The translations under genes and the position numbers were made by a program. DNA of 45,912 bases. Origin: an uncultured Lachnospiraceae bacterium. Lineage in GTDB: Bacteria > Bacillota > Clostridia > Lachnospirales > Lachnospiraceae. The stretch is from positions 1 through 45,912 of the forward strand of contig CADBIU010000001.1 in NCBI GenBank assembly GCA_902794825.1, given 5' to 3'. Shown here piece by piece: positions 7,518-19,259 of the stretch. The notes under the pieces are model-generated. The model ran no database searches. It had not been told where the DNA came from and saw only the letters and a program-made list of their open reading frames with translations. Within the stretch, counting starts at the first letter, position 1, and every line of letters starts with the position of its first letter.

Positions 7518-8321
7518 TTATAGTTTAAATTTTGTCTCCCGAAGTCTTACAGCCCAATACCCGAACGCAGCAAGGCTTCCTACTGCAAAAAAGACCAGCC
7601 ATAAAGGACCCGACAGGATCCTGCCCCATCCTGCTGCGGAGGCGGCAAGGACGCAGAGATTACATGTACAGTGAAGCAGAAAAGGTATTTCAAATCTCAG
7701 GGTAAGCTCATAGCTTAGAGCAAATATCATTCCCATAATAAATCCGTATATGGCCTGTGGAATGTTCTCATGGGCTGCGGCGAATAAAAGCGATGAGAAA
7801 AAGGCCGACGCCAAAGGAGCAAAACCTCTCCGGAGCCTGTGCCATACGATTCCCCGAAATACAATCTCCTCGATAAAAGGCGTGAGGATCCCGTATACCG
7901 CGGCTCCGAGGGGAACAGCGTAGGGGCTGAGGCTGACAGCAGCTTCCCGGGACCATCTTCCAAGAAAAAGATTGCAGAATGCGCAAAGACAGATCGTTCC
8001 GAAAGGGAGCAGTCCTATAAGGGTGCCCTTATCTTTTCTCTTTTCGAGCCAGGAGCGGGAACTTCTGCGGCGGGCGAGTAAGATCTCTCTCCTGCCCTCT
8101 TTCAGGACCGGAATTGCCGCGGCCGCGCTTGAGATTCCAATGATCAGTATACCGGCTATATCACTCCATACTTCATAGTACAGCGTCATATCCACTGACG
8201 CGGTAAGAAGCGCAGATTCCAACAGTCTGTACAGGATCGCCCTGACAGTGATAAAGAGGACCATATAGAACAGAAAAGGCCGCACTGCATACCACCCGAT
8301 CTCCAGCCGCTCGCGATTCAT
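7518..8321 (-). CDS. CPBP family intramembrane glutamic endopeptidase
   Basis: 267 residues with about eight predicted hydrophobic segments. The three CPBP (Rce1/AbiI type) motifs are intact: EEIVFRG with E151, E152 and R156; FAAAHE with H184; and HCTCN with H217 and N221. These residues form the membrane active site of CAAX-type prenyl proteases. Bacterial members process or protect against peptides, including bacteriocins, but most are uncharacterised. A charged cytoplasmic loop (RRRSSRSWLEKRKDKG) lies near 84-99. No bacteriocin gene is adjacent, so the substrate is unknown. The gene stands alone between the rpmE promoter and the terminator of the acyl-CoA dehydrogenase. Confidence 0.88.
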   Translation of the reverse strand: MNRERLEIGWYAVRPFLFYMVLFITVRAILYRLLESALLTASVDMTLYYEVWSDIAGILIIGISSAAAAIPVLKEGRREILLARRRSSRSWLEKRKDKGTLIGLLPFGTICLCAFCNLFLGRWSREAAVSLSPYAVPLGAAVYGILTPFIEEIVFRGIVWHRLRRGFAPLASAFFSSLLFAAAHENIPQAIYGFIMGMIFALSYELTLRFEIPFLLHCTCNLCVLAASAAGWGRILSGPLWLVFFAVGSLAAFGYWAVRLRETKFKL

Positions 8322-17049: not shown

Positions 17050-18456
17050 TCAGTGTTTTCCTTTCTCGCGGCTTTCAATGATGGTCTCGCCGGAGATGAT
17101 CTCGAAGTTGACGCCCGTGCGGTTGGGCTTGTCGTCTTCAAATTTGTAGTCTTTGCCGGGCAGGATCGCGTTGAGGATGATACCTACCAGGGAACCGGTA
17201 GCGAGACCGGAAAGGCTCAGTGTCATTGAACCGACGGGGATGTTGATCGCGCCTGCGTTGGAATAGCTGATGCCGATGGAAAGAACCATGATCAGCGCCG
17301 CGATCAGGACGTTTCTGCTCTTGGAGAAGTCGGTGTTCGTCTCAACAAGGTTTCTCACGCCGACTGCGGAGATCATTCCGTAGAGGACAAGGGAGATGCC
17401 GCCGATCGTCGCGGCGGGCATGACCTCGATGATAGCCGCGAATTTCGGGCAGAAGGACATCAGGATCGCAAATCCTGCCGCGATACGGATTACGCGGGGA
17501 TCATAGACCTTTGTCAGAGTCAGGACACCGGTGTTCTCGCCGTAAGTAGTATTGGCCGGAGCTCCGAACAGGGAAGCAATTGCTGTGGCAAGACCGTCGC
17601 CTGTCAGTGTGCGGTGCAGTCCGGGATCCTTAATATAGTTGATGCCGCAAGTGGAACTGATGGCTGAGATATCGCCAATATGCTCCATCATTGTCGCGAG
17701 CGCGATGGGCATGATAGTCACGATGCTCGTGAGAAGAAGCCCCGCGTTGAGATTGCCGCCGGTGAAAATAGAGAATACCGTGTTCTTATAGCTGATCGGG
17801 AAGCCTATCCAGGGAGCTGCCGCTACCTGACTGAAATCGATCAATCCTGCCACTGCCGCGCAGAGATAGGAGCCGATGACGCCGAGCAGGATCGGGACGA
17901 TCTTGATCATTCCCTTGCCCCAGATATTGCAGATCACAACGATAATGATCGCGACAAGGGCTACCCACCAGCAGGACTCGACATTATTGATCGCCGAAGG
18001 AGCAAGGTTAAGTCCGATCGAGATAATGATGGGACCGGTAACTACCGGCGGGAAGTACTTCATTACCTTGCTGGTGCCGTACGCTTTAAAGAGCGCGGCG
18101 AGAATAAGGTAAAGCAGGCCTGCGCATGCGACGCCGAAGCAGGCATAAGGCAGAAGTTCGCTGGACGAGCCGTCTGCTCCAAGGGGAGCGATAGCCGCAT
18201 AACCGCCAAGGAATGCGAATGAGGAACCCAGGAATGCGGGAACCTTTTTCTTGGAGATCAGGTGAAACAGAAGCGTTCCTAATCCTGCGAACAACAGTGT
18301 CGTGGAAACATTCAGTCCTGTGATCAGCGGAACAACCACAGTAGCGCCGAACATGGCGAACATGTGCTGAAGTCCCAGCACGATCATCTTGCCCGTACCC
18401 AGCTCCCGCGCATCGTAAATGGCGCGCTCGCCGACTTTGTACTCGTTTTTACTCAT
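17050..18456 (-). CDS. uraA: NCS2 family uracil (uracil/xanthine) permease
   Basis: 468 residues from the ATG at 18456, which has AGGAGGAAATACAG just upstream. The protein is polytopic, with about 12-14 hydrophobic segments. N-terminal sequence (LGLQHMFAMFGATVVVPLITGL) and the later GENTGVLTLTKVYDPRVIR segment are typical of UraA-type uracil:proton symporters rather than purine-only PbuX/PbuG types. Xanthine transport cannot be excluded from sequence. An in-frame ATG at 18531 would add 25 residues, but the family normally starts at the downstream site. The gene is monocistronic and preceded by a promoter, a leader ORF and an intrinsic terminator, strongly suggesting pyrimidine-responsive attenuation. 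Confidence 0.88.
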   Translation of the reverse strand: MSKNEYKVGERAIYDARELGTGKMIVLGLQHMFAMFGATVVVPLITGLNVSTTLLFAGLGTLLFHLISKKKVPAFLGSSFAFLGGYAAIAPLGADGSSSELLPYACFGVACAGLLYLILAALFKAYGTSKVMKYFPPVVTGPIIISIGLNLAPSAINNVESCWWVALVAIIIVVICNIWGKGMIKIVPILLGVIGSYLCAAVAGLIDFSQVAAAPWIGFPISYKNTVFSIFTGGNLNAGLLLTSIVTIMPIALATMMEHIGDISAISSTCGINYIKDPGLHRTLTGDGLATAIASLFGAPANTTYGENTGVLTLTKVYDPRVIRIAAGFAILMSFCPKFAAIIEVMPAATIGGISLVLYGMISAVGVRNLVETNTDFSKSRNVLIAALIMVLSIGISYSNAGAINIPVGSMTLSLSGLATGSLVGIILNAILPGKDYKFEDDKPNRTGVNFEIISGETIIESREKGKH

Positions 18457-18527
18457 CTGTATTTCCTCCTGTTTGAAAAGATCCGGGAAAGCTGAGCCGC
18501 GATGGCTTTTACAGCCGACGATCGCTG

Positions 18528-18545
18528 TCATCCTGACGATCTCAT
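18528..18545 (-). CDS. Second minimal leader ORF (MRSSG) before the permease
   Basis: Five codons starting at the ATG at 18545, with AAGGGGGT 4 nt upstream. Its TGA overlaps an ATG at 18531 (ATGA) that is in frame with the permease. It lies immediately after the attenuator U-tract, so it is transcribed only on read-through. It could couple translation into a longer permease form, or be chance. Expression is unproven. Confidence 0.3.
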   Translation of the reverse strand: MRSSG

Positions 18546-18556
18546 GATACCCCCTT

Positions 18557-18590
18557 AAAAAACACGTCAGGGAACACTGCCCCTGACGTG
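18557..18590 (-). terminator. Intrinsic terminator inside the permease leader (attenuator)
   Basis: Minus strand: CACGTCAGGG (18581-18590), 8-nt loop, CCCTGACGTG (18563-18572), then TTTTTT (18557-18562). The 10-bp perfect stem and six U residues lie about 70 nt after the predicted start site and about 100 nt before the permease ATG, so the terminator acts in the leader, not at the end of a gene. Confidence 0.88.
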
Positions 18591-18596
18591 CTGCAA

Positions 18597-18638
18597 TTAA
18601 CTCATGATATTCAAACGATTGACAACTCTCCGACTCAT
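18597..18638 (-). CDS. Leader peptide ORF upstream of uracil permease
   Basis: Thirteen codons (MSRRVVNRLNIMS) then TAA at 18597-18599. The ATG at 18638 is preceded by GGGAAGGA with 5 nt spacing, a good ribosome site, about 23 nt after the predicted transcription start. The stop codon lies 6 nt before the attenuator stem, so a ribosome finishing this ORF would cover the 5' arm of the terminator. No run of identical codons is present, which argues against charged-tRNA sensing. Confidence 0.55.
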   Translation of the reverse strand: MSRRVVNRLNIMS

Positions 18639-18652
18639 TGATGTCCTTCCCT

Positions 18653-18697
18653 CAAAAAATCTAAAGAGATTCTAATCAAGAACATAAAAATAGTCAA
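18653..18697 (-). promoter_or_regulatory. Promoter of uraA with T6 initially transcribed tract
   Basis: TTGACT (18692-18697), 17-nt spacer, TAGAAT (18669-18674). The bases after the -10 are CTCTTTA then GATTTTTTG (18653-18661), placing G and A at positions 8 and 9 after the -10, where initiation is expected. This resembles the initially transcribed regions of E. coli codBA and upp, which allow UTP-dependent RNA polymerase slippage. Confidence 0.7.
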
Positions 18698-18731: not shown

Positions 18732-19259
18732 TTATTCGCTCTCCTCACCTGACTCTTCGGGGAACTCCTCCTCACAGTCAGCTTCCTTGTCGCGGTCGTC
18801 CTCGTTGACCGCCTCGCAGGCTTCAGGCTCCTCAGAAGCCATTTCTTCTGCCAGCGCGTTTGCTACAGCTTCTTCAACAACTTCTTCATCGAGCTTGCTC
18901 TCTTCTTCCTGAAGGATATCCTTAACACGGGCAGCGGAATCCGCAACAACGCCCTTGACCTTTTCAGCGGTCTCACCGACAACGTCGAGAACTTCTTCTC
19001 CCTTGGGACCGATCGCTTCCTTGACCTTGGCCATCGCATCAGCAGAACTTTCCTTGATAGTAGTGTACGTCCTGGTTGCGGCTGTCATGAATTTCTCTGT
19101 ATAGTCTTCCTCCTCTGACTTCGGGGTATCGTCGTCCTCGAAATCATCGTCAAAATCCTCATCCGGCTCGCTGTTCTTCTGATCCAGATAATTATAAACT
19201 GTTGCCGCAGTTGCGCCTGCCACCGCAAGACCAAAAAGAAGTTTTCCTAATCTAGACAT
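18732..19259 (-). CDS. Hypothetical acidic protein with N-terminal membrane segment
   Basis: 175 residues. Residues 5-24 (GKLLFGLAVAGATAATVYNY) form one hydrophobic helix, probably a membrane anchor or uncleaved signal. Then come a strongly acidic stretch (EPDEDFDDDFEDDD, about 31-44), a middle region with an amphipathic helical pattern of A/V/K (about 60-120, KVKEAIGPKGEEV, EKVKGVVADSAARVKDI) and a second very acidic tail rich in Glu. The middle resembles the repetitive helices of YtxH-like or apolipoprotein-like stress proteins, but I do not recognise a family. The ATG at 19259 has a strong AGGAGG. It is divergent from the TetR gene, which may regulate it. Confidence 0.75.
   Translation of the reverse strand: MSRLGKLLFGLAVAGATAATVYNYLDQKNSEPDEDFDDDFEDDDTPKSEEEDYTEKFMTAATRTYTTIKESSADAMAKVKEAIGPKGEEVLDVVGETAEKVKGVVADSAARVKDILQEEESKLDEEVVEEAVANALAEEMASEEPEACEAVNEDDRDKEADCEEEFPEESGEESE

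Follow-up and report, generated by a model that had tools for sequence, protein, structure and literature searches.

The window analyzed here, a stretch of 45,912 nucleotides from an uncultured, rumen-type Lachnospiraceae bacterium (contig CADBIU010000001.1, assembly GCA_902794825.1), contains a 13-codon leader ORF that stops just before a predicted intrinsic terminator, upstream of a gene for a UraA-like permease. Translation-coupled attenuation before the permease is well supported by the comparison of leader sequences, and the ribosome itself would probably decide whether the transporter gene is read. On balance, we favor the view that transcription of a uracil permease gene is controlled here by a ribosome-gated attenuator.

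Organization of the permease leader

The features of the locus are as follows:

18669..18697, minus strand: predicted sigma-70 type promoter, TTGACT-17-TAGAAT (consensus scan; by eye, retained in near relatives)
18653..18661, minus strand: GATTTTTTG, probable start region with a T6 run (direct reading; GAT3-6G in the leaders of the clade; codBA match)
18644..18648, minus strand: AAGGA ribosome site of the mini-ORF (direct reading, leader comparison)
18597..18638, minus strand: 13-codon leader ORF MSRRVVNRLNIMS with a TAA stop (direct reading, leader comparison, shuffles)
18557..18590, minus strand: attenuator with a 10-bp stem, an 8-nt loop and T6 (direct reading, folding)
17050..18456, minus strand: NCS2 permease, UraA-like, the regulated gene in our proposal (protein models, homologue comparison)

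By direct reading of the minus strand, the -35 (TTGACT, 18697-18692) and -10 (TAGAAT, 18674-18669) elements are separated by a 17-nt spacer and match 10 of the 12 consensus letters. The consensus scan found 8 promoter-like sites of equal quality within 5 kb; shuffled sequence gave 4.1 on average, so that the promoter is a prediction only. Five nucleotides lie between the AAGGA (18648-18644) and the ATG at 18638, and six (18596-18591) between the stop of the mini-ORF and the stem. The stem is a perfect 10-bp pairing (18590-18581 with 18572-18563) followed by T6 (18562-18557), with a folded energy of -20.4 kcal/mol. The attenuator lies within about 105 nt of the probable transcription start, and the TAA of the mini-ORF and the ATG of the permease are 139-140 nt apart. 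The original prediction had described the 13-codon ORF with its AAGGA site, its stop at 18597 and the stem 6 nt further on, all of which proved correct to the base; the absence of any run of a single codon in this ORF, which it had also claimed, was confirmed. Nine letters, TATCATGAG, flank the attenuator on both sides (18609-18601 and 18549-18541, minus strand), the downstream copy being partly altered in near relatives.

The permease and its neighbors

The permease passes the NCS2 superfamily model and scores below the stricter cut-off of the uracil permease equivalog. It shares 36% identity with E. coli UraA, and both contain the segment NTTYGEN, which we take to hold the glutamate that binds uracil. 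The three best relatives with a solved structure are all uracil permeases. A PyrR gene over cut-off directly adjoins the permease gene in 4 of 14 genomes from other families, which fits a uracil permease. The nearest named matches come from uncultured Lachnospiraceae MAGs of the RUG series, and those farther out from Oribacterium and [Clostridium] aminophilum. The frame of the permease is open for 25 codons farther upstream, to an ATG at 18531 (18457-18531, minus strand); this stretch is missing from relatives such as L005, and the start at 18456 was therefore preferred. The neighboring upstream gene (18732-19259, minus strand) encodes a small acidic protein with one membrane-like segment and matched no NCBIfam or Pfam model. 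Similar acidic protein endings precede many permeases of the genus.

The leader ORF and the hairpin among relatives

Of the 55 genus genomes in which the permease was matched, all but G028 (a match of 43% identity) contributed a leader, 54 in total; a further 80 loci came from named genomes, and 8 of these 80 share their leader with a genome of the genus. Twenty-six genus leaders out of the 54, along with that of Oribacterium sp. KHPX15 (L042), contain a terminator whose stem foot is of the CAC type. This set of 27 leaders was chosen by the hairpin with the ORFs in view, and hence not blind. In 23 of these 27, we observed an ORF of 8 to 20 codons, starting at an ATG with at least three ribosome-site (Shine-Dalgarno) letters; its stop lies no more than 14 nt ahead of the stem base and no more than 15 nt past it. 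The ORF runs through the hairpin in two others (L026 and L130). A stem without its ORF, the case that would weigh against the original prediction, was found only in the remaining two (L134 and L136), where it comes after the upstream gene; in L134, the leader of G065, the hairpin lies about 9 nt past the stop of that gene. The leader peptides of the set have little in common beyond a frequent MR or MSR start.

Dinucleotide shuffles of the 85 nt upstream gave an expectation of 1.65 leaders with an ORF ending at the stem among 18 representatives, which are partly related and not fully independent, against 15 observed. When the real start codons were kept, 14 of 16 stops fell at the stem, compared to 3.05 predicted. 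For the window leader alone, an ORF of at least 7 codons with a Shine-Dalgarno site and an ATG ended at the stem in 7.9% of the shuffles. Taken together, the retention of the start and the ribosome site, the change of the peptide and the retention of the stop at the stem support a genuine leader ORF.

Twelve of the 62 genus genomes contain the sequence of the window stem, each at a single site, which always lies a short way ahead of the permease. The CAC foot of the stem is kept across the leaders and the loop letters GTGTTCCC within the clade of the window, while the loop and the upper stem vary freely outside this clade. Where the ORF stops before the stem, as it does in 14 representatives, the distance from stop to stem is 1 to 14 nt, a stretch that a ribosome at the stop codon should cover. 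A short ORF of variable sequence was thus kept in place among orthologous leaders, as had been anticipated, but the fixed distance from stop to stem expected along with it was not one number.

Exceptions and leaders outside the genus

As far as the scan and inspection by eye went, a hairpin of this type is missing in 28 of the 54 genus leaders, including those of the near kin L004 and L007. The scan missed the hairpins of L018, L020, L118 and L119, which were recovered by eye or by pattern, so further hairpins may hide among the 28. L118 and L119 (leaders of G067 and G063) keep the mini-ORF and the hairpin with a T tail decayed to TTTCATG, and termination there may be weak or lost.

Outside the genus set, five leaders of 72 further loci (L065, L068, L071, L089 and L103) have an ORF that ends 0-6 nt into a different hairpin, Oribacterium being the sixth case. 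Four of the five belong to one Oscillospiraceae-side group of the permease tree; L071 comes from Pseudoflavonifractor phocaeensis. Two other loci outside the genus passed the mechanical scan and were rejected: the ORF of L051 seems to be the tail of the gene upstream, a situation also met in L050 and L056, and that of L084 has 8 codons and a GTG start. In a tree of 106 permeases built by a quick method, the layout label must change at least 10 times, 6 of the changes being forced by well-supported branches, which indicates that the layout was repeatedly gained or lost.

In the last 130 nt of the permease leader L073, from an uncultured Clostridia MAG, an upstream GACCGGCAAG can by eye pair with the CTTGCC of the terminator; there, the same permease may be under antiterminator-type control. 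A search for plasmid copies of the window leader gave no match.

Frequency of the layout in the genome

A sample of 840,631 of the 2,735,962 bases (31%) of the genome of the window was examined with a simple ORF caller. A hairpin was present in the upstream gap of 100 of 732 called genes, and 7 loci, including the permease, met the mini-ORF criterion. Among the other 6, one starts with ATG and has a weak hairpin (-12.4). The layout is therefore nearly unique to the permease in this sample.

Of 136 strong terminators of ordinary genes in the same genome, 19 start at 12 nt or less from a stop, against 13 of 14 leader ORFs, the latter being the representatives that stop before the stem, drawn from several genomes. 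The corresponding counts were 7/17 and 4/19 in the genus genomes G014 and G069, 12/29 and 9/36 in the PyrR-bearing relatives G049 and G037, 5/7 in phage SPBc2 and 14/31 in E. coli K-12. E. coli is thought to couple transcription and translation, and it has more close terminators than the genome of the window; for this reason spacing was dropped as a gauge of coupling by which to rank organisms, and was kept only for the contrast between leader ORFs and ordinary genes.

Directly upstream of pyrB, upp, pyrE and pyrG of the same genome, which follow another gene by 15, 51, 34 and 87 nt, respectively, no leader with a mini-ORF and a terminator was found, and a shared pyrimidine regulon was rejected on this ground. 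Thirty pyrB loci were inspected by eye, with a misplaced start in at least two (L142 and L168). The 87-nt gap before pyrG (L262) contains a G+C-rich hairpin (GGGGT...ACCCC) without a T tail; pyrG of B. subtilis is controlled by a G-run start (excerpt of PMC4448216).

Search for an antiterminator, PyrR and RNA families

In an RNA duplex test against shuffled sequence, no upstream stretch showed better than chance pairing with the stem's first 16 nt: the 5' arm against the upstream 75 nt gave z = +1.04 in the window and a mean of +0.34 over 18 leaders. The claimed lack of a competing antiterminator was thereby borne out. PyrR was over cut-off in none of the 62 genus genomes (listed completeness 63 to 99%). 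Weaker matches to the PyrR model, with E-values up to 1e-6, occurred in 13 of the 62 and are perhaps other phosphoribosyltransferases. The PyrR RNA element RF00515 was over cut-off neither in the genome of the window (0/1) nor in the 62 genus genomes, the latter searched with stricter filters and at most 49 candidates scored per genome. PyrR-RNA attenuation was rejected on these results.

At the leader, no Rfam family attained its gathering score, and the three matches (E-values 2.1-4.3) were at chance level; over the whole window, only a tRNA attained it. An amino-acid leader-peptide attenuator of the trp/his type was rejected as well, the leaders having no regulatory codon run and no alternative hairpins. 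In the open literature, a scope outside which subscription papers mostly lie, we found no report of this leader.

Proposed mechanism

Given no antiterminator, no codon run and no PyrR or RNA site over cut-off, the remaining explanation is that a ribosome standing at the stop codon masks the stem directly. In the mechanism that we propose, RNA polymerase would start near 18661, transcribe the ribosome site and the 13-codon ORF, and meet the intrinsic terminator. If the polymerase reaches the terminator before the ribosome reaches the end of the ORF, the hairpin would form and transcription would stop. If the polymerase is slow or paused, the ribosome at the stop would cover the 5' arm, no hairpin would form and the permease would be transcribed. 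We hold this read-through step with good confidence. The leader peptide itself would have no role, and the device would be a race, in which whatever slows the polymerase relative to the ribosome opens the permease gene. Shortage of pyrimidines (UTP) would be the likeliest signal, slowing the polymerase; in the clade of the window it would act also at the T3-T6 start.

At the E. coli terminator tR2, moving the stop from 28 to 5 bp upstream lowered termination from about 90% to less than 10%, and repression of the terminator was abolished without translation (excerpt of PMC4824070). According to the same excerpt, E. coli terminators in the first 100 bp are usually not repressed, the ribosome being behind, unless a pause couples both. 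Since the attenuator of the window lies so close to the transcription start, a pause or a slow start would be needed here.

Comparison with known systems

Attenuation by a ribosome race, without codon runs or antiterminators, operates at E. coli pyrBI and pyrE, and the device of the window may work like both. Like pyrBI with its leader pyrL, it has a translated leader ORF (predicted here) at an intrinsic terminator, no antiterminator, a pyrimidine gene, a short T run at the start (AATTTG in pyrBI) and a similar T content of the leader (33% here, 34% in pyrL). The strict likeness to pyrBI that had been suggested fails: pyrL, with 44 codons, runs through its terminator, whereas the 13 codons of the window end 6 nt before it, and the longest T run before the stem is 3 nt, against 5 in pyrL. 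An ORF overlapping the terminator was seen in L006, L026, L130, L065, L071, L089 and L103 and not in the window; since the ORF lacks this overlap and the pause tract is unproven, we did not file the leader as pyrBI-type. At the E. coli pyrE attenuator, the rph stop codon lies a few nucleotides before the terminator. The layout of the window is nearer to this arrangement, except that the ribosome there comes from a full upstream gene (rph) and here from a dedicated mini-ORF. L134, with its hairpin after the stop of the upstream gene, looks nearer still to rph-pyrE.

We know of no leader ORF with an attenuator at E. coli codBA or upp. As in codBA, TAGAAT is followed by the identical nine letters GATTTTTTG, with a spacer of 7 nt here and 6 in codBA; slippage at the window start is a prediction from sequence. 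Both codBA and upp-uraA are UTP-controlled (excerpts of PMC6245113 and PMC4448216), the latter operon containing the related permease. PyrR attenuation of Firmicutes pyr genes and permeases is similar in the kind of target gene and in the use of attenuation, but differs in its components, PyrR and RF00515 being below cut-off in 62/62 genus genomes. Firmicutes leader-peptide attenuators such as hisS (excerpt of PMC2965389) and bmrCD (PMC4191407) likewise place a short translated ORF before a terminator; in contrast to the His codon run of hisS, the leader of the window lacks any codon run, and its ORF stops at the stem. The authors of a 2010 survey knew of no demonstrated leader peptide system beyond Proteobacteria and Actinobacteria, ermC excepted; the survey describes a histidine leader in bacilli (excerpt of PMC2965389).

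The T-run start and the signal

The window has the traits of a codBA/upp-type start (A or GA, a T run and G, 6-8 nt after the -10). Among the 27 leaders, a GAT3-6G start was present in 11 of 11 from the clade of the window and in 0 of 16 elsewhere; a T5 run of another kind follows the -10 of L126, and in L015 a run of T6 lies farther down. Of 959 promoter-like sites in the genome sample, 16 have a purine followed by T4 or more at the start place, a base rate at which the T6 alone is suggestive only. A promoter-like site (L194, around position 7914, reverse strand) has GGATTTTTTGG just before a gene that presumably encodes an FtsW/RodA-like protein, and is possibly another U-slippage start. The original prediction had combined the attenuator and the T6 start into a two-level pyrimidine sensor: the T3-T6 start is kept in the clade of the window, but with none among the 16 other leaders, this second level is at most a local feature.

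Before the stem, the longest T run is at most 4 nt in 19 genus-type leaders. Between the ATG and the stem, A exceeds T in 15 of these 19, and T is below 20% in 5. Runs of 4-5 T precede the hairpin in the five outside leaders, which seem more like pyrBI than the genus-type leaders. UTP is the natural guess for the signal of a uracil permease without PyrR; as the actual regulating signal it has, in our judgment, slightly less than an even chance.

Alternative explanations

The same ribosome gate could respond to general translation capacity or growth state instead of UTP, which we regard as rather unlikely while giving it real weight. The excess of A over T in 15/19 leaders, the T content below 20% in 5/19, the lack of any T run above 4 and the absence of the T-run start in 16/27 leaders all agree with a general signal. 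They have to be set against a uracil-type permease as the gene concerned, in a genus without detected PyrR, a T content of the window leader equal to that of pyrL, and the T runs of 4-5 nt in the five outside leaders.

The other explanations do without the gate. A protein or small molecule binding the conserved hairpin through its loop, with the ORF secondary, would account for the retention of the CAC foot and, in the clade, of the loop; the free change of the loop and upper stem outside the clade, the Rfam search with its three chance-level matches and the ORF statistics, which it leaves unexplained, make it improbable. We consider it still less probable that the mini-ORF boosts translation of the permease by re-initiation, or protects the RNA, next to a hairpin that acts as a constant partial terminator: leader genes near a start codon have been proposed to help re-initiation, but at 10-16 bp (abstract of PMC4833913) against 139-140 nt in the window, and the position of the ORF follows the hairpin rather than the start codon of the permease. 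An accidental ORF ahead of an ordinary terminator would be unremarkable for the window leader taken alone, given its shuffle probability of 7.9%, and is hardly credible for 15 of 18 representatives where 1.65 were expected. Overall, these comparisons argue for the ribosome-gated attenuator. Against it count the 28 genus leaders in which the hairpin was not seen, L134 and L136 with their stem and no mini-ORF, the poor T tails of L118 and L119, the usual lack of repression at early E. coli terminators, and pyrB, upp, pyrE and pyrG, which show no such leader directly upstream.

Implications for Clostridia

As a tentative generalization, polymerase and ribosome may race each other to set uracil uptake in Clostridia without PyrR. 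A dedicated mini-ORF of nearly any sequence would bring a ribosome to rest at its stop, over the base of a terminator; one clade would have gained a codBA-like U-slippage start as well, and the layout would several times have arisen or been re-tuned ahead of the same permease. Should attenuation hold in Lachnospiraceae lacking a detected PyrR, and likewise in some Oscillospiraceae, it would be a second answer to pyrimidine sensing in Firmicutes. In B. subtilis, transcription is reported to outrun translation (excerpt of PMC7858274), which counts against the proposal. If the proposal is true, leaders would be sites of working transcription-translation coupling in a phylum whose model organism, B. 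subtilis, has been described as uncoupled, and the leader would provide a simple reporter of whether ribosomes in gut and rumen Clostridia keep pace with RNA polymerase.
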